Below, piece by piece: positions 55,744 through 64,000 of a DNA stretch of 64,000 nucleotides (its first letter is position 1; each line of letters opens with the position of its first letter). Location: the NCBI GenBank assembly GCA_016218365.1, contig JACREF010000009.1:124001-188000 (forward strand). The letters run 5' to 3'. The stretch comes from Gammaproteobacteria bacterium. GTDB taxonomy: Bacteria; Pseudomonadota; Gammaproteobacteria; SZUA-140. A program made the translations under genes and the position numbers. Below the pieces are notes generated by a model. The model had not been told where the DNA came from, made no database searches, and saw only the letters and a program-made list of their open reading frames with translations.

Positions 55744-55766
55744 TCGCGCATAACTGTTGTTGAATC

Positions 55767-55794
55767 GACAAGGGCACCTTCGGGTGCCCTTGTC
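55767..55794. terminator. Hairpin after the exported-protein gene
   Basis: A perfect 12-bp stem GACAAGGGCACC / GGTGCCCTTGTC with a stable TTCG tetraloop, starting 24 bases after the stop codon. Only three Ts follow (ATTTGC), so termination may be partial, giving high expression of the first gene and lower expression of the rest. Confidence 0.6.
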
Positions 55795-55882
55795 ATTTGC
55801 GGCGAACGCAATTGGGATTCCACTGTTATACATGATAGTATTATGTATAACGTTTTTCATCGCAGGGTGGCGGGATTTTGTT

Positions 55883-56839
55883 ATGTCAGTAATTAGATAT
55901 GCAACAGTGCTGATGATGATGCTGATTGCTAGTGGCGTCATTGCGGAGTCAATGGCCCCAGCAGCAGATAACATTTCAGGTGAAGAAGTGTTTCGAAAGT
56001 GTGGGTATAAATATCCTGGCAAGGATCAGGTATCCAGGTTTACGGTATTGCTACGTAATGATGATGGTCAGGTCAAGAAAAGCGAATATATAAGGGTCTG
56101 GAAGGATTTTGACGGCATTGACCAAATTGCCGATAAGATGCTGCTGTTTACCATCTATCCACCTGACGCCAAGGGCGCCTCATTTATGCGCGTGGCTTAT
56201 ACCAAGGAGCAGCAATATAAGGTTGATCAGTGGATTTATCTGCCGGTGCTGAAAAAGATCCGGCGCGTTACGGTGCGAGACCCTGGCGATAGTTTTCTGA
56301 ATTCAAACCTGACCTACGCAGATGTTGCCATGCGGGCGCTGGAGGATGACACGCATAAACTGTTGGGAGTAAAAAAGGTCAAGGACTTGGAATTTTATGT
56401 TGTAGAGAGTATCCCAAGAGAAACGAAACCTTTATACAGTAAGCGAGTGTTCTGGTTTGAGAAGACGGTAGATTGGAAAGATTGTTCAAATGTTCGTATA
56501 GATTATTATGATACCAAAGGCGAGCTGCAGAAGGAGCAGTTCATTAAGTGGCAGCGCGTCGGCGACGCATGGATATGGGACCGGGTCTTGGTGCGTAATA
56601 GGCAAAACCAAAGCGCATCCGTATTTGAGCTGAGTGGTGTCAGGATAAATACCGGCATACGTGAGGATGTCTTTAGCGAGCGTAGTCTGGTGCAGGGTCT
56701 GAAGCTGGAGGGTGGGGGTGAAGACTCCCCGGCATCGAGGGAAGATGGCAAGAAAGGTGAGGGCACTGGAGATGTGCCAGCTGCAGCAGTAACAAATAAT
56801 GTTCTTGACGGCAGTGCTGAGGGCGCAGCCAGAAAGTGA
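55883..56839 (+). CDS. LolA-like outer-membrane lipoprotein-sorting family protein
   Basis: 318 residues from the ATG at 55883, chosen because it begins a signal peptide (MSVIRYATVLMMMLIASGVI, cleavage near IAE-SM). The fold is the LolA-like type (PF17131 style): LFTIYPPDAKGASFMRVAY, QWIYLPVLKKIRRVTV and FLNSNLTYADVAMR are characteristic. Such proteins usually accompany RND/MMPL lipid transporters and DUF1302/DUF1329 porins; no RND gene is present here. The C-terminal 45 residues are charged and low-complexity. A periplasmic lipid or lipoprotein carrier role is inferred. Confidence 0.8.
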   Translation: MSVIRYATVLMMMLIASGVIAESMAPAADNISGEEVFRKCGYKYPGKDQVSRFTVLLRNDDGQVKKSEYIRVWKDFDGIDQIADKMLLFTIYPPDAKGASFMRVAYTKEQQYKVDQWIYLPVLKKIRRVTVRDPGDSFLNSNLTYADVAMRALEDDTHKLLGVKKVKDLEFYVVESIPRETKPLYSKRVFWFEKTVDWKDCSNVRIDYYDTKGELQKEQFIKWQRVGDAWIWDRVLVRNRQNQSASVFELSGVRINTGIREDVFSERSLVQGLKLEGGGEDSPASREDGKKGEGTGDVPAAAVTNNVLDGSAEGAARK

Positions 56840-56895
56840 TCGATGTGAAAGAGCGCTGTTGTATGGACGAGTAGTTAAATCGTGTTATACTTTGT

Positions 56896-56909
56896 CTAAC
56901 ACTTGTTAG
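56896..56909. promoter_or_regulatory. Palindromic operator candidate upstream of the ribbon-helix-helix gene
   Basis: CTAACA-CT-TGTTAG is a perfect palindrome with 6-base arms. It sits 12 bases before the start codon of the next gene and just after a -10-like TATACT (56886-56891). Position and symmetry fit an autoregulatory site for that gene's product. Confidence 0.5.
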
Positions 56910-56920
56910 GCGGAGGCGAT

Positions 56921-57367
56921 ATGATAAACATGAACGAAATGACAAAAAAGATGCGCGTAGAAGCGCGTAGACATGGCGAGTCTATGCGAGATCAGGCAAG
57001 GGCAGCAGCGCAGCTGAGAAAAGAGGAGTACCTTGGTGCTCGCGTGCCTAGGGAGTTAAAGGATAGGGTTATAGCGCATGCAAATTCTCTTGGCATCCCG
57101 GTATCAATCCTGATCAGGAATATTCTGGAAGAGAGTTTTAAAAAGCCGCTTGTGTCAAGTAGTGGCAATAGTGCTGGCCAAGGCTTGGTTGCAGGTGAGG
57201 GGAAATATCCGGGCGTATTAGGCTGGGAGCGTATCACACTGAACCGTGGTATGAGTTGTGCGTCATGTGGCAAAAGGATGAGTCAGGGTGGAGAGGCAAC
57301 ACTTGGGGTTGGCCAGCCAGGGGAAGGGTATGTGATCCTGTGTGGCGATTGCAAAATCAGTTATTAA
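56921..57367 (+). CDS. Ribbon-helix-helix protein with C-terminal zinc ribbon
   Basis: 148 residues; the ATG at 56921 has GGAGGCG upstream. Residues 38-72 read LGARVPRELKDRVIAHANSL followed by IPVSILIRNILEESF: a beta strand and two helices as in Arc/MetJ-type DNA-binding dimers. The C-terminus has CASC (113-116) and CGDC (141-144), a four-Cys zinc ribbon. The basic helical N-terminus may extend the dimer. A perfect palindrome overlies its promoter region, so autoregulation is likely. The DUF1302 gene starts inside its 3' end. I know no described family with this pairing; the role as cluster regulator is inferred. Confidence 0.7.
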   Translation: MINMNEMTKKMRVEARRHGESMRDQARAAAQLRKEEYLGARVPRELKDRVIAHANSLGIPVSILIRNILEESFKKPLVSSSGNSAGQGLVAGEGKYPGVLGWERITLNRGMSCASCGKRMSQGGEATLGVGQPGEGYVILCGDCKISY

Positions 57368-58824
57368 AGTATGTTCTGGTTGGGGCGCTGGTCTGCATAA
57401 GTGATGCAGCACTGGCGGATGACCAGACCCCTGATGATGTAATTAATGACATTGTCGGTGAGGTCAGCGCGACCAGGGAGCAGCCGCGTCCATGGACGTC
57501 AAAACTGTTTCATGGCTATATCAAGAACGAAACGGCCTTCCGCTATGATGAGCCAAGATCAATCACCAAGTTGAGAAATATCCTGTATCTGGAGCGAGAG
57601 GGGCAGCTGACAGAAAAGGTCAGGACGAAGATTTCAGGCTGGTATTATTACGATTTTGCATATGATCTGTTTGACTACCAGACGATAGCGGCTCGCTCTG
57701 TGCGAGACGCGAATCAGCCGTTGGTTTTCATCGAAAACCTGGGCAGGCAACGTGATAGCAATGTAGCAGAAATAAAGGAGTTGTATGCCGAATATAACAG
57801 TGAAAAGTTGGATATCAGGATTGGTAAGCAATATGTAATATGGGGTGTTATTGATGGGATCAGGATAGTAGATGAAATAAACCCCCAGAACTTTCGTGAG
57901 TTGATATTACCTGACCTGATTGATTATAGAATTCCATTATGGACAGCCAAGCTGGACTACTATTCAAATTCTGCCAAATGGGAGATGCTGTGGATACCGG
58001 ACCTGCGATTTCATAAGCCAGCGCCGCAAGGGTCTGAGTGGGAGCTTTTGCAGGAAGTGCCGAACACGCGTTATCCAGACCCGGGCCGACTTGAGAATTC
58101 GGAGCTTGGATACAGGGTAACCTGGAATATCTTCGATGGCGAGGCATCGCTCAGCCACTTTATTACCTGGGATGATTTCCCGGTGATTTTCAGAAATATT
58201 GCAATGGACTCGGCAATTTCTCCTGAGTTCTACCCGACGTTTACCAGAATAAATATCTTTGGCGCGACCTATCTGCGAGATATTGGCCCAGGAATTCTTA
58301 AGGCAGAGCTGGCGTATGTGCCAGATAAGTATTTCGGAATTGCCAATGATACAGATCTCGATGGTGATGGATATCTCGATTATGAAGGTGAATTGCAGCG
58401 ACGCCATATTCGATGGGCACTGGGATATGAGTTTAGTTTCAAAGGGATCGATTTTTCGCCAGCTGTTACTCAATGGATAATTGATAATTATCACCCAAAG
58501 ATGATTCAAAAACAGAATGATACTACCCTAACGCTTTACATGAGGAAGCCTGTCCCTGAGAAGTCAATGGTATTTCAGATGTTAATAATAGATCTGAATA
58601 GTCTAAATGAGTTATATCTGAAGCCAAAGATTACTATCATGCTTTCAGACAGCTTTCAGGTTGGATTTGGACTAGATCTATTTTACGGGGAAAAATCCTC
58701 ACTAGGTGTTGCGACTGGCGCTGCAACAATATCTGGAATTAACAGTCTGGAGCAGAGCGCACAATTTTTCGGGAATTTTTACAATAATGACCGCGTGTTT
58801 GCTGAATTTAAATATTCATTTTGA
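57340..58824 (+). CDS. DUF1302-like outer-membrane porin
   Basis: About 494 residues. No ATG fits; the best start is GTG at 57340, giving a signal peptide (MWRLQNQLLKYVLVGALVCI, cleavage near ALA-DD) with AGGGGAAGGG upstream, and overlapping the regulator gene by 28 bases. The body has DUF1302-type strands such as ELYAEYNSEKLDIRIGKQYV, with VIWGVIDGIRIVDEINPQNF following at once. It ends VFAEFKYSF with the C-terminal Phe of BAM substrates. The family forms large pores often linked to hydrophobic compounds. Codon use is AT-richer than that of the flanking core genes. Confidence 0.8.
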   Translation: MWRLQNQLLKYVLVGALVCISDAALADDQTPDDVINDIVGEVSATREQPRPWTSKLFHGYIKNETAFRYDEPRSITKLRNILYLEREGQLTEKVRTKISGWYYYDFAYDLFDYQTIAARSVRDANQPLVFIENLGRQRDSNVAEIKELYAEYNSEKLDIRIGKQYVIWGVIDGIRIVDEINPQNFRELILPDLIDYRIPLWTAKLDYYSNSAKWEMLWIPDLRFHKPAPQGSEWELLQEVPNTRYPDPGRLENSELGYRVTWNIFDGEASLSHFITWDDFPVIFRNIAMDSAISPEFYPTFTRINIFGATYLRDIGPGILKAELAYVPDKYFGIANDTDLDGDGYLDYEGELQRRHIRWALGYEFSFKGIDFSPAVTQWIIDNYHPKMIQKQNDTTLTLYMRKPVPEKSMVFQMLIIDLNSLNELYLKPKITIMLSDSFQVGFGLDLFYGEKSSLGVATGAATISGINSLEQSAQFFGNFYNNDRVFAEFKYSF

Positions 58825-58861
58825 AGGCATTCGCTGTCGCGAATATGGCAAGGGTGCGGGC

Positions 58862-59767
58862 GTGCGCGGGTATGCATTTTTCTTGGTTAGGTTGATGCTT
58901 GTATTGTCAATGGTCTTGGAGGCATCAATGGCTCATTCCGCGTCGCGACATTGGAAGGTGTCCCCGATGTTGGGAATAGCCAGCCCAGAATTCCATGATC
59001 TCGGGAAATATGAGTTCAAGGCAGATATGCCCTCGGCAGGAAATATTATTCTGGATAATGAAACCAATATTAGGGTTGATTTCATGCTGGTTAATGACCT
59101 GCCAAGAATCAGCTATGGAACATTGGCAGGAGCTGAGATATCAACGCAGCTTGACGATAGAAATGATGTGATATTCGGATTGAGCAGTTGGGAGGGAGGA
59201 AGCGGATCCCGGGTGAGGGTCAAGATACCATTCCAGGGTGTGATGAGTGATACGGCCTTTGAACGGACCGGAAATATTTCATATACCCAGTATAGCCTTG
59301 GCTGGCGACACTATTATATGAATAATAATGCTGCATGGAGATGGAGTTATAAGCTTGCTGTTCATGAAATATTTGATATTGATTTCAAGGAGCGCATGGT
59401 ATTCGCATTTGCAAGCGGCCCTGCGGCAGGCTTCAAAAGAGTAGTTGTGATGGAGTCTCAGGGGGCCGGGATGATGGCCATAGAGGCGGGTTTGGGCGCA
59501 GAGAAATCAATGAATAGATGGTTGTCATTTGGCATGGATGCGGGCTATCTGCAAGGTGTCAGGCGTGTGGTGCTGAATAATGGAACGATGAAAACAAACT
59601 TCCAGGAAGAGGCGTCGGGCAGCGATTATTTGCAGATCAAGTTGCCGGCCCAATTAGGCCCTGATGGTAGTCTGGGATACCTGGTGTCGGGTACTGATGT
59701 ATATAAAAAGATGAGGATGAATGTAGATGGCTGGCAGATCGTATTCAAGGTGAACTTCCATTACTGA
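58862..59767 (+). CDS. Envelope protein of unknown family, probable outer-membrane barrel
   Basis: About 301 residues from GTG at 58862 (AAGGG upstream); longer in-frame starts lie inside the previous gene. A hydrophobic leader (GYAFFLVRLMLVLSMVLEAS, cleavage near AHS-AS) precedes a body of alternating strands (YTQYSLGWRHYYMNNNAAW; RWLSFGMDAGYLQGVRRVVL). It ends IVFKVNFHY with a terminal aromatic residue. This points to an outer-membrane barrel of roughly 12 strands. I recognise no family. It sits between the DUF1302 porin and the TPR-barrel protein with gaps of 37 and 54 bases, so all three are probably co-transcribed. Confidence 0.65.
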   Translation: MRGYAFFLVRLMLVLSMVLEASMAHSASRHWKVSPMLGIASPEFHDLGKYEFKADMPSAGNIILDNETNIRVDFMLVNDLPRISYGTLAGAEISTQLDDRNDVIFGLSSWEGGSGSRVRVKIPFQGVMSDTAFERTGNISYTQYSLGWRHYYMNNNAAWRWSYKLAVHEIFDIDFKERMVFAFASGPAAGFKRVVVMESQGAGMMAIEAGLGAEKSMNRWLSFGMDAGYLQGVRRVVLNNGTMKTNFQEEASGSDYLQIKLPAQLGPDGSLGYLVSGTDVYKKMRMNVDGWQIVFKVNFHY

Positions 59768-59821
59768 TATGAATTTGCGCGATATTGTCCAGATTAATTT
59801 GATCCTGAAGGCGGGCTTGCC

Positions 59822-62494
59822 GTGATTGCAAGGGCATTGATGATATCTATAATGCTGTTTTATCCCGTAGTGGACAGTATTGCCGCCGCTCCGACAACGT
59901 CGGAAAGATTGGCGGAGTCCGACCATCTTATCAACAGAGGAATTTATAAAGATGCTGAGGTGATCCTGGGAGAGATTCTGGCGATTGAGCCGAACAATTC
60001 GGCCGCAATCTATCAAAGTGGTGTGATAGCAGTACGAGAAGGCCGACTTGATGACGGGCAGATATGGATAAGGCGCGCCATAGAGCTGGAGCCGCTAAGG
60101 GTAGAGTTCCGGGTTGCCCTGGCGTCAGTTTATCAATTCAAGGGCCTGTTTACTGAGGCGCTTCAGGAGTATCAGCAGATCATGTTGCTTGCCGCCAAAG
60201 ACGATGTTTTCTATAAATTAGCTAGAAAAGAATCGAGATATATTATCGCGACTGAAAACGCAAAAAAGGGTGATTATGCTACTGCTGCCGAGTTATTTAC
60301 ATGGTTGGTCGATGAATATCCAGATGACATCAGAAGTCGCTATAGCCTTGGAGTAGCCAAGCTGTATCTTGGAAAAATTGATGAGGCGATAATCGACTTT
60401 AACGCCGTTATAGATCTATCGCCCGATTATGTGGATGTGTACTTCGCACTTGCTGACGTCTATTACAAGACCGGTAGAATACCAGATTCTGTTGAAACCA
60501 TGCAGCGCTTACTGAATCGTGGTGATAAAGTTCCATCTGAAGCAAAGCAGCGTGCTCAGATCAAGATTAATCTGACCGAGGCCGCAGCAATCCTTGAGCA
60601 GGGCAATGCCGAGGATGCGCTAGCCATATTCAAGGCGGTTCTGTTAATTGACCCAGCGAATCAGGTGGCCGCAATCGGCAAGGGCAGGGCTGAGATCGAG
60701 CTTAAAGAATACGATGCAGCAATAATTACCTTAGGAAAGGTTATTGATAGATATGGCAAAGACCCGGCGGCACAATATTATTATGCTATTGCCCAGATTA
60801 GGCGTGGCAATATGGATGAAGGAATTCAAAAGCTATACGTCATGAAGGATGACATAACTCAGGGAAGATATGGGGAAATGGCTCAGCATGAGATTGATGT
60901 GCTGGCGCGTGACCCGAGGTACCGCGAAAGGATCAGCGAGCAGATGATAAATATTGCCAGAGAACGCTTGGCATCTGATCCTCATGATGCATCAGCACGA
61001 AAAATTCTTGCTGATGATTATGCGAGGAAGGGGGATTTGGTTAATGCGCGCATGGAATATGACCAATTGCTTGCGGGAGATGAGAATAATCTATTGTTTA
61101 GAGTCATGCTCGGCCAGTTAAATGAAGGGCTCGGTGACTATGGGCAGGCAATTGATCATTATGCACGAGCGGTGGCGCTCACGATGGATTCTTCGCTTGC
61201 CGAGCAAGGTGGGCGAATGTTGCTGCTGACAGCAGCACGCAGGATGTATCAGGAGAAAAACTATACTCAGGCGCTAGAGCTTGCGACTCGGGCCCGAGGG
61301 CTCGACCCTGGAAATCCAGATATACTGTTCATGCTGGGTATGATCGACATTCAACTGGGAAGAACTAAAGAGGCAATTGACGAACTTAGCATGTTGCTGC
61401 AAATGGCCCCTGAACATGTCGGGGCGCGGATTAATTTGGCGTTTAGCCTCGAACAGATTGGGCGTGAAGAAGACGCGCTGATTGAGTATCAGAACCTCCT
61501 TAAACAGAAAGAGCTTGGGGATGAGTATAGAATGATGGTGGTCGACCGCGTTGATGTGGTGGAGAGAATGCTGATGGGGCTGAGCGGTAGTTTCAGCTAT
61601 TCACTAGGTGTTACTGATAACGTTAGTCTAAGCAAACACAAAGAGAGTGATCTGCGCTCTGATCTTGCCTTCAATATGGGGTATAACTATAAGGATGAAA
61701 ACGGCGTTAAGTGGAGGATGGCGCTGTCGCCAAGTTATACCAGTTATCATGTTGGTCAGTATGATTATTTTAATTCGGTAAGCTCATTGAGTGCTGCGAC
61801 AAGTGAATGGTATGGATTCAAGTTTAATGCTGGCTTGACGCATAATCTGTCACGCGGGGTCCTTGATCAGCACAGTTTGATGGAGTCAGTGTCGGCAAGC
61901 CTTGGTGGTCAGAGGAGTCTATACCTGCCTGTCGTATATAATCCAACTGGATTGAAAAAAGGACTTGCTACGGTGTCCATTAATCTTGCAAGGACCGATT
62001 CTGAGAATATAGCCACTCCGGCATTGAGCGCCTATGTTACTGCTATTAACCTTTCTTTGAACCAGTCTGTTGGAAGCAGCGACAGCATTGAGGCTTCCTA
62101 TGACTATTCCATTTCTGATAACAAATATAATCAGGGAACTGATTACGCTAACACTTCATATGGCATTACGCTGGGGATTGAGCATGCCTTTCAGGCCGGT
62201 ATTGTCGGCAAGGCGGGTTATAGCTATGCCAAGATATTGTATGGATATCCGGATTCATATACCAAGTACAAACAGTATCGGACCAATGATCATCATGGGC
62301 TGGACCTGAGTGGATCATATAGTTTCCGAGGGAGGCTGCGTTTTTATGTAAACCTATCCTTGGTTATTAACCAATCTGATCTACCGGTGGGCTTCTCGCT
62401 ATCGCCTCAGAATGTCATCCAGGGACAGCAGAGCTTTTCGTTGGGAAGTTATAACGCGACCACCCTGTCAACAGGTATGGTGATGGGGTTTTAA
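59822..62494 (+). CDS. TPR protein with C-terminal outer-membrane barrel
   Basis: 890 residues; GTG start at 59822 with AAGGCGGG upstream. After a signal peptide (ALMISIMLFYPVVDSIAA) come many tetratricopeptide repeats (about 30-585; for example GIYKDAEVILGEILAIEPNN, GLFTEALQEYQQIMLLAAKD). A C-terminal region of about 290 residues consists of amphipathic strands (SFSYSLGVTDNVSLSKHKES; LRFYVNLSLVINQS) ending TGMVMGF. The layout matches outer-membrane exporters such as BcsC/PgaA and the Slam lipoprotein assemblers, but no specific signature was recognised. It is the largest gene of the cluster and probably its scaffold or translocon. Confidence 0.75.
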   Translation: MIARALMISIMLFYPVVDSIAAAPTTSERLAESDHLINRGIYKDAEVILGEILAIEPNNSAAIYQSGVIAVREGRLDDGQIWIRRAIELEPLRVEFRVALASVYQFKGLFTEALQEYQQIMLLAAKDDVFYKLARKESRYIIATENAKKGDYATAAELFTWLVDEYPDDIRSRYSLGVAKLYLGKIDEAIIDFNAVIDLSPDYVDVYFALADVYYKTGRIPDSVETMQRLLNRGDKVPSEAKQRAQIKINLTEAAAILEQGNAEDALAIFKAVLLIDPANQVAAIGKGRAEIELKEYDAAIITLGKVIDRYGKDPAAQYYYAIAQIRRGNMDEGIQKLYVMKDDITQGRYGEMAQHEIDVLARDPRYRERISEQMINIARERLASDPHDASARKILADDYARKGDLVNARMEYDQLLAGDENNLLFRVMLGQLNEGLGDYGQAIDHYARAVALTMDSSLAEQGGRMLLLTAARRMYQEKNYTQALELATRARGLDPGNPDILFMLGMIDIQLGRTKEAIDELSMLLQMAPEHVGARINLAFSLEQIGREEDALIEYQNLLKQKELGDEYRMMVVDRVDVVERMLMGLSGSFSYSLGVTDNVSLSKHKESDLRSDLAFNMGYNYKDENGVKWRMALSPSYTSYHVGQYDYFNSVSSLSAATSEWYGFKFNAGLTHNLSRGVLDQHSLMESVSASLGGQRSLYLPVVYNPTGLKKGLATVSINLARTDSENIATPALSAYVTAINLSLNQSVGSSDSIEASYDYSISDNKYNQGTDYANTSYGITLGIEHAFQAGIVGKAGYSYAKILYGYPDSYTKYKQYRTNDHHGLDLSGSYSFRGRLRFYVNLSLVINQSDLPVGFSLSPQNVIQGQQSFSLGSYNATTLSTGMVMGF

Positions 62495-62628: not shown

Positions 62629-63381
62629 TCAGTCGCGCAATGCCTTGAAGGCAGTGACAGCCCATATTAATGTTGCGGTTGCAAAGATCGACATCAGGAT
62701 CAACCCCTTGATGAACAGATGGCTGTCTACCGGTGTGGTCAGGATGGCGCGTACCGCATCGACGGCATAACTGATCGGATTGATCACAGAGATATACTGA
62801 ATCCACTTGGGAATAAACTGCTCCGGGACCAGTGCCGACGAGAAAAACATCAGCGGCAGCGTCATCAGGTTGCCTATCATGACCAAGGGCTCTTCACGTT
62901 GCAGCGTGATGGCAAAGCCATTGGAGATGGCCGCAAAACCGATGCCGAGCAGAAATACAATCAGCAGACCCAGCAGGATATTGATCGGGTTCATCGAGAT
63001 CGTTGAACCCATTGACCAGGCAACAATCAGGATGATCAGTGTTTGCGCCAGCACCTGGACCGCGGAATGGAGTACCCGGCTCAGGACGATGGCAACGCGT
63101 GATACCGGCGCCACCAGCATCTTGTCCACGGTGCCAGAGGAGATCTCGCGCAGCAGGCTGACGCCTGACCACGAAGAACCAAACAGTACCGTCATGATCA
63201 GGATACCCGGGACCATGAAGTCGACATAATTGCCATCAGACTTTTGTACGAAGGCACCAAACAGCTGGCCGAAGATGACCAGCCAGATCATCGGCTGGAT
63301 CAGGGTGAATAATGACCACAGCGGCATGCGCAGGGTGATGGTCATGTATTTCTTGAACAGATACCAGGTATCGGAAATCAC
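62629..63381 (-). CDS. ABC-2 type transporter permease
   Basis: 250-residue inner-membrane protein with six predicted helices, such as LFTLIQPMIWLVIFGQLFGA and LAQTLIILIVAWSMG. The ABC-2 signature region PLMFFSSALVPEQFIPKWIQ is followed by ISVINPISYAVDAVRAIL. The start is GTG at 63379-63381. It follows the ATPase gene by 35 bases, so the two form one exporter. This family exports polysaccharides, lipids, drugs or heme-like compounds; the substrate is not evident. Confidence 0.92.
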   Translation of the reverse strand: MISDTWYLFKKYMTITLRMPLWSLFTLIQPMIWLVIFGQLFGAFVQKSDGNYVDFMVPGILIMTVLFGSSWSGVSLLREISSGTVDKMLVAPVSRVAIVLSRVLHSAVQVLAQTLIILIVAWSMGSTISMNPINILLGLLIVFLLGIGFAAISNGFAITLQREEPLVMIGNLMTLPLMFFSSALVPEQFIPKWIQYISVINPISYAVDAVRAILTTPVDSHLFIKGLILMSIFATATLIWAVTAFKALRD

Positions 63382-63416: not shown

Positions 63417-64000
63417 TCAGCCTTTCCAGTCATCTTTTTTTGGCTTGCCGTCCTTGTCCACCCATTCATTGCCTTGCCAGTTCGGATCCTTGCCCCAGTC
63501 GCCCTGTTGCTGGCCTTCTTTATCGACCCATTCATTGCCCTTCCAGTTGTCGGGCGTGCTGTCAGTGGTTTGTTGCGGCTTTCCTTGCCAGTCAGCTTTG
63601 GGTTTGCCGCTCGGGTCTACCCATTCATTGCCTTGCCAGTTCGGGTCCTTGCCCCAGTCGCCCTTCTGGCTGCCATCGGGGCTGACCCATTCGTTGCCTT
63701 GCCATTGTTCCTTGGTCTGCGTGGCAGCGGGCTGTTCCTTGGGTTTGCCATCCTTGTTGACCCACTCGTTGCCCTGCCAGTTCGGGTCATTGCCCCAGTC
63801 GGTTTTCTGGGTGCCATCGGGGTTGACCCATTCATTGCCTTGCCAGGCTGAGCCATCACCGGCTTCATCCTCCCCGTCACCGGCCCACTTCTTCCAGTTG
63901 CCACCACCACCCTTGCCGGCCCATTGTTTCCACCACTCATCCTGACCCTCATCATCCTTTTTCTCCAGCATGCTGGTGCCGGTGTATTTGAGGAAGACAT
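63417..64000 (-). CDS. C-terminus of an ABC transporter ATPase carrying a Trp-rich repeat tail (partial)
   Basis: The reading frame enters at the window edge and ends at TGA 63417-63419, about 193 codons. The first visible residues VFLKYTGTS fit the end of DrrA/CcmA-type ABC ATPases (usual form E-D-V-F-L-x-x-T-G), which suits the permease gene directly downstream. After this normal end the protein continues for about 180 residues: an acidic/Trp segment (EWWKQWAGKGGGGNWKKWAG), then six copies of W-[QK]-G-N-E-W-V each followed by a short D/G/K-rich linker. The catalytic motifs lie outside the window, so the ATPase call rests on the end motif and the neighbour. The tail is highly charged, probably disordered and cytoplasmic. 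Confidence 0.75.
   Translation of the reverse strand, partial: VFLKYTGTSMLEKKDDEGQDEWWKQWAGKGGGGNWKKWAGDGEDEAGDGSAWQGNEWVNPDGTQKTDWGNDPNWQGNEWVNKDGKPKEQPAATQTKEQWQGNEWVSPDGSQKGDWGKDPNWQGNEWVDPSGKPKADWQGKPQQTTDSTPDNWKGNEWVDKEGQQQGDWGKDPNWQGNEWVDKDGKPKKDDWKG
63461..63846. repeat. Six in-frame WQGNEWV-coding repeats
   Basis: Six near-identical 20-base blocks begin at about 63461, 63527, 63620, 63686, 63761 and 63827, spaced about 66, 93, 66, 75 and 66 bases apart. Two linker types alternate: one ends DWG-[NK]-DPN, the other starts GKPK, so the true unit is a pair. Their high identity at nucleotide level suggests recent expansion. Confidence 0.9.

Follow-up and report, generated by a model that had tools for sequence, protein, structure and literature searches.

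ATPases of ABC transporters are usually thought of as compact engines. Members of the DrrA family (TIGR01188), such as those of Streptomyces DrrAB and Mycobacterium tuberculosis DrrABC, share an ATPase core with a YSGGM signature, a C-terminal domain, an LDEVFL-like motif and an adjacent permease, and the known proteins end shortly after that motif, an early stop that is usual for the family and not strictly defining. M. tuberculosis DrrABC exports PDIM together with the RND protein MmpL7 and the lipoprotein LppX, and removal of the DrrA C-terminal domain harms this export, the authors of that work proposing that the domain binds substrate (PMC11539658). The extreme C terminus of the same protein is short and was modeled as flexible, possibly touching the opposite NBD (PMC11539658). 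Rv1747 is an example of an ABC transporter that can be clustered through a disordered module on its cytoplasmic side (PMC10906006). Here we describe a subfamily of DrrA-type ATPases in which the short end is replaced by a long tryptophan-rich tail. Searches of the literature, which took in few subscription papers, found no DrrA or other ABC ATPase with a tryptophan-rich tail, nor any paper with the string WAGKGG.

An in-frame extension on a DrrA-type ATPase

The window analyzed here is a stretch of 64,000 nucleotides (positions 124001-188000 of G000:C24), at the end of which a minus-strand frame (63417-63998) is open without a stop. Extended past base 64000, this frame gives a single uninterrupted protein of 498 aa (G000:C24:187417-188913) that holds, all in one frame, a Walker A motif (GPNGAGKST), the signature YSGGM, a Walker B motif (VLFLDEP) and, upstream of the tail, the DrrA-type end LDDVFLKYTG. 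Its core matches TIGR01188 (drrA) over profile positions 1-302 of 302 with a score above the curated cutoff (331.8 versus 312.45 bits), and it also matches PF00005 and the DrrA C-terminal domain PF13732 in Pfam. A preliminary description of this DNA had read the end of an ABC exporter ATPase as running straight into a series of repeats; the motifs found beyond the window edge bear this out, and there is neither a stop nor a frame change between the ATPase and the repeats. The protein is a DrrA-type ABC-2 exporter ATPase that, instead of ending shortly after the LDEVFL-like motif, continues into an in-frame C-terminal Trp-repeat tail of 184 aa, attached at about the same point as the extreme C terminus of M. 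tuberculosis DrrA.

An ATG at the very start of the tail (63971), by which the tail is also listed as an ORF of its own, might be taken to mean that the repeats come from another reading frame or protein. The probability of such an artifact is close to nil: the frame is open across the core-tail junction in 34 homologous genes, and the Met at 63971 is replaced in many homologs, by Ile, Leu or others, so that a separate start is not conserved. A separate gene or frame error is rejected at the sequence level by the continuous frame in the window protein and its homologs.

The permease adjacent to the ATPase has drrB as its best NCBIfam match, with a score below the cutoff of that model. The preliminary description had further noted that the permease lacks a matching extension, and this extends beyond the 250 aa of the present protein to nearly all related loci (about 250-255 aa). 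A permease homolog is found in all 23 ATPase-holding loci of the cluster; at locus G004, automatic gene picking showed an overlapping frame at the permease. By analogy with the described DrrA systems, the ATPase-permease pair of the window is a putative drug or lipid exporter, probably acting on a lipid or other hydrophobe.

Table 1. Features of the ATPase locus, in window coordinates
Feature	Position	Strand	Remarks
DrrA-type ATPase core, C-terminal end (VFLKYTGTS)	63972..64000	-	Core runs on to G000:C24:188913
Trp-rich C-terminal tail, 184 aa	63417..63971	-	In frame with ATPase
Anchor WWKQWAGKGGGGNWKKW	63885..63935	-	WW..WAGK[GD]G in 34/34 homologous tails
Repeat 1, WQGNEWV	63825..63845	-	Pair 1
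Repeat 2, WQGNEWV	63759..63779	-	Pair 1
Repeat 3, WQGNEWV	63684..63704	-	Pair 2
Repeat 4, WQGNEWV	63618..63638	-	Pair 2
Repeat 5, WKGNEWV	63525..63545	-	Pair 3
Repeat 6, WQGNEWV	63459..63479	-	Pair 3
ABC-2 permease, DrrB-like, 250 aa, tail-less	62629..63381	-	About 36 bp downstream of ATPase; PF01061, E 3.6e-32
Large TPR protein (c5)	59822..62494	+	Convergent neighbor in 15 loci
c4 protein, about 300 aa	58877..59767	+	No Pfam match; neighbor in 15 loci; start codon uncertain
DUF1302 protein (c12)	57256..58824	+	PF06980, E 2e-10; start codon uncertain
LolA_like/DUF1329-like protein (c17)	55757..56839	+	PF17131, E 2e-37

Anatomy of the tail

Six W[QK]GNEWV units arranged in doubles had been reported for this tail, and we recovered them as three pairs within the 184 residues, the spacing being 22 residues within a pair and 25 and 31 residues between pairs. 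The corresponding DNA array has a TRF score of 202 at a match of only 67%. Codon comparison of the repeats gave pS 0.67 and pN 0.18 within the gene (pN/pS about 0.27) and pS 0.72 and pN 0.19 between genomes. Because the synonymous difference within the gene (0.67) exceeds the nonsynonymous one (0.18), it is the peptide that is kept, as opposed to DNA copied recently, and the repeat codons are under purifying selection. Judged by conservation across the homologous tails, the most conserved part is the anchor WWxQWAGKGG...W...W, absent from the preliminary description, the GNEWV repeat being one lineage's version of the sequence beyond it. The pattern WW..WAGK[GD]G lies 12-15 residues past the DrrA motif in every tail, with two further anchor tryptophans 12-15 and 15-21 residues on from its first W.

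Tails across the subfamily extend 88-333 residues past the DrrA motif, the point near which known DrrA proteins end. Tryptophan makes up 9.5% of the tails versus 0.68% of the cores in the 34 proteins and stays near 7-13% in each tail; other hydrophobic residues are scarce, with Phe and Tyr at 0.1% each, Ile at 0.5% and no Cys. Distances of 3, 5, 8 and 13 between tryptophans are enriched and those of 2, 6, 7 and 10 depleted, in counts to which within-tail repeats contribute and which are not independent. By the charge-hydropathy boundary, each of the 34 tails is classed as disordered and none of the cores is. AlphaFold2 modeled the tail alone with low confidence (pLDDT 45.8), placing short weak strands in the GNEWV pairs, and reached 62.5, again a model of low confidence, for the GNEWV pairs with a three-row pair alignment. 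Judged from composition only, the tail is predicted to be mostly disordered, and it is likely to be cytoplasmic; the weak strands leave open that the GNEWV pairs form a folded repeat.

The tail has no model describing it in Pfam, NCBIfam or PHROG, so that a whole ATPase subfamily carries a fixed extension lacking from these collections. Wzt likewise bears a C-terminal extension on the ATPase of an ABC-2 exporter; that extension is a folded substrate-binding domain, whereas the present one looks disordered, and searches of ten tails gave no Pfam match to a recognizable folded domain of the Wzt type. Like the phosphorylated regulatory module of Rv1747, the tail is probably a disordered part of an ABC transporter that lies in the cytoplasm; neither an FHA domain nor a known phospho-switch was seen in it.

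Every tail is net acidic (-3 to -32), only the anchor being near neutral or basic. This bears on the idea that the Trp/Lys anchor is inserted into the inner leaflet beside the pump, with weak interfacial contacts contributed by the distal repeats. Tryptophan prefers the membrane interface, WWKQWAGKGGGGNWKKW contains lysines and the ATPase sits against the membrane, all of which would fit such surface anchoring; we nonetheless regard it as rather improbable, as the acidity of all of the tails disfavors contact with the anionic inner leaflet.

Distribution, descent and rewriting of the tail

Homologs were sought with the tail-less core, a query blind to the tail, in a sample of 369 genomes from across the class, which to judge by gene content is probably Gammaproteobacteria. 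A close core homolog (54-69% identity excluding the query, in frames that all exceed 413 aa) is held by 24 of these genomes, four of them from the window's own family, and the tail is present in all 24. In that family, 15 of 20 genomes have the close core, with the tail in all 14 whose sequence continues past it; in G006 the tail is cut by the contig end. A fifteenth own-family tail, in G012 (L009, G012:C205), starts at a contig edge and is split over two frames, through either an assembly error or a real frameshift. The class sample and the own family together provide 34 tailed proteins from nine families. Among 94 relatives, a gap in similarity separates these from the rest, with nothing between E values of 5e-117 and 3e-58; identity falls to 35-44% in the next homologs beyond it, whose frames are 309-384 aa long. 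When the 34 tailed cores were placed in a tree with 14 tail-less relatives, which end soon after the DrrA motif, a 100/99 branch set the tailed group apart from them. By these sequence comparisons, the tailed ATPases constitute a distinct subfamily in part of the class, every member found having the extension, and the simplest reading would be one gain of the tail with no loss seen. The earlier statement that the family lacks such tails accordingly stands for DrrA ATPases at large and fails here, where every close homolog found has one.

The conservation of the tail may partly reflect shared ancestry, its carriers being largely one lineage: in an rpoB tree, 17 of the 20 tailed genomes tested fall together (SH-aLRT 92), and the members of families f53 and f76 stand apart, in weakly placed positions. 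To look for the anchor outside the class, a degenerate DNA pattern for it was run against 398 genomes of the phylum and retrieved the own genome and one probable chance match, a weak result given the few genomes of tailed families in that sample. A phage or plasmid origin of the tailed ATPase was considered and rejected, since PHROG gave no match and the plasmid matches were only to DrrA cores, from Streptomyces, Nocardia, Nonomuraea and haloarchaea.

Beyond the anchor, the repeats come in two dialects. The first, resembling W.[GN]N[ED]W, occurs in the window's own family, in f76 and in one f81 member; the second, W[ST].EE..W (also written W(S/T)xEExxxW), occurs in f22, in one f53 member and in the other f81 member. 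The pattern W.[GN][NST][EDQHK]W is found 46 times beyond the anchor in the 34 tails, versus a mean of 0.3 in shuffled sequences, and units of the second dialect 27 times, versus 0.06. The two f81 proteins, from different genera, share the same anchor, and yet that of G223 (L071) carries WQGNDW pairs and that of G099 (L074) eleven W[ST]xEE units. Within the own family, WKNSDW/WQNNEW takes the place of GNEWV in eight species of genus g3, and the GNEWV copy number in six species is 6, 5, 4, 2, 7 and at least 2. Across the sampled sequences, the repeat unit is rewritten between lineages and tryptophan content stays, which makes the tails a natural experiment on which features of a disordered region evolution preserves.

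Such variation in copy number (2 to 7) and in unit sequence could mean that only the anchor acts, locally and for example on the other NBD, and that the distal repeats, prone to slippage, are filler that a disordered tail can tolerate. Tryptophan, however, is a costly residue with a single codon that readily turns into a stop, because of which its loss would be expected from neutral sequence. Its level in every tail and the low pN/pS of the repeats both speak against weak constraint, and we consider an expansion of this kind quite improbable.

A further alternative is that the tryptophans serve as aromatic platforms on which the molecule to be exported, be it a glycan, a glycolipid or a choline-like head group, is bound in the cytoplasm and handed over to the permease, in the manner of the carbohydrate-binding domain of Wzt. 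The proposal made for the C-terminal domain of M. tuberculosis DrrA (PMC11539658) lends this some support, as does a likeness of the GNEWV pairs to choline-binding repeats (PF19085, 4cnl) in Trp/Gly spacing, with possible short hairpins: phmmer matched the whole sequence to 4cnl (E 5.5e-4), and Pfam Choline_bind_2 matched below its cutoff (E 0.023 and 0.011). The likeness is, however, confined to two GNEWV tails, single stretches giving E values of 0.04 or worse, and the tails of the second dialect show none of it, although one ligand should need one fold. PF19085 scores 15.4 and 16.4 bits on the tails against a gathering score of 27, and membership in the choline-binding modules was rejected on these scores. 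Choline-binding modules, moreover, act outside the cell, and an extracellular place is unlikely for a tail fused to a cytoplasmic ATPase. Capture of the substrate by the tail appears unlikely.

Candidate function and gene neighborhood

The preliminary description had proposed that the repeat might bind a substrate, a partner or the membrane surface, all of which are still candidate roles, or that it might restrict movement of the exporter, which is a conjecture. We tentatively favor a role for the tail as a multivalent, disordered tether of tryptophans, serving to cluster exporters and/or to bind a partner or substrate near the entrance of a pump that would feed a lipid relay. The tether is preferred to substrate capture because different repeat units replace each other over evolution, and to membrane binding because all of the tails are acidic. 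The anchor would dock at a fixed site of the exporter, which might be the opposite ATPase subunit, the coupling face of the permease or the inner leaflet, and the distal tryptophans would act as spaced stickers making several weak contacts at once, by which exporters would be clustered and/or a partner protein held near the pump entrance. If the number and spacing of tryptophans are what mainly matters, the intervening sequence could drift and new repeat units replace old ones. The GW/WG-repeat Argonaute hooks (GW182, NRPE1) similarly pair a disordered chain and conserved tryptophans with drifting spacers; these are unrelated eukaryotic proteins that might work alike, and no Argonaute partner is implied for the tail. 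It is possible, if doubtful, that the WWxxWAGK dock and the Trp-dominated disordered chain together represent an undescribed interaction module, a multivalent hook that would act from the cytoplasm to organize the machinery of lipid export in the envelope. For exporters of the DrrAB type in Gram-negative bacteria, the tail is a candidate for the handle by which partners or cargo are found.

The pump itself would pass a lipid or another hydrophobic molecule to a relay in the envelope made up of the LolA-like, DUF1302 and TPR proteins and, where present, MMPL, a role comparable to that of DrrABC-MmpL7-LppX for PDIM. Like that system, the locus has a LolA_like gene and, in many relatives, an MMPL gene, which suggests a functional parallel between the two. 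In the same convergent orientation as the TPR protein, the MMPL pump is found in 12 loci, and DUF1302 and LolA_like proteins in fewer. The window genome, G003 and G004 have no MMPL gene between those for DUF1302 and c4, the position that it occupies in g3 and other families. Because several families have the ATPase without an adjoining MMPL/TPR/c4 set, that set is not essential at the same locus.

A profile of the c4 protein, for which Pfam and NCBIfam gave no match, hits 24 of the 369 class genomes, and these are precisely the genomes with the tailed ATPase. There are two paralogs of c4, one of which usually adjoins the ATPase locus. Only lower-scoring copies occur in the f37, f75 and f76 genomes, where they lie away from the locus of the ATPase that these genomes hold, and in G001, G008 and G009, own-family genomes without a tailed ATPase. 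We therefore discount the co-occurrence, which would at best weakly suggest linkage, because c4 has two paralogs and the rpoB tree shows mostly shared ancestry; as proof of linkage it was rejected on these grounds and on that of the lower-scoring copies.

Some further observations concern the surroundings of the ATPase. The conserved set at 55757-62494 of the window (LolA_like, DUF1302, MMPL in some relatives, c4 and TPR) resembles the DrrABC-MmpL7-LppX lipid-export set. The own genome has a second copy of c4 at G000:C25:28632-29585. A small protein with weak CopG/Arc similarity is encoded at 56903-57367 on the plus strand of the window; its place between LolA_like and DUF1302 is conserved in three genomes of the family.
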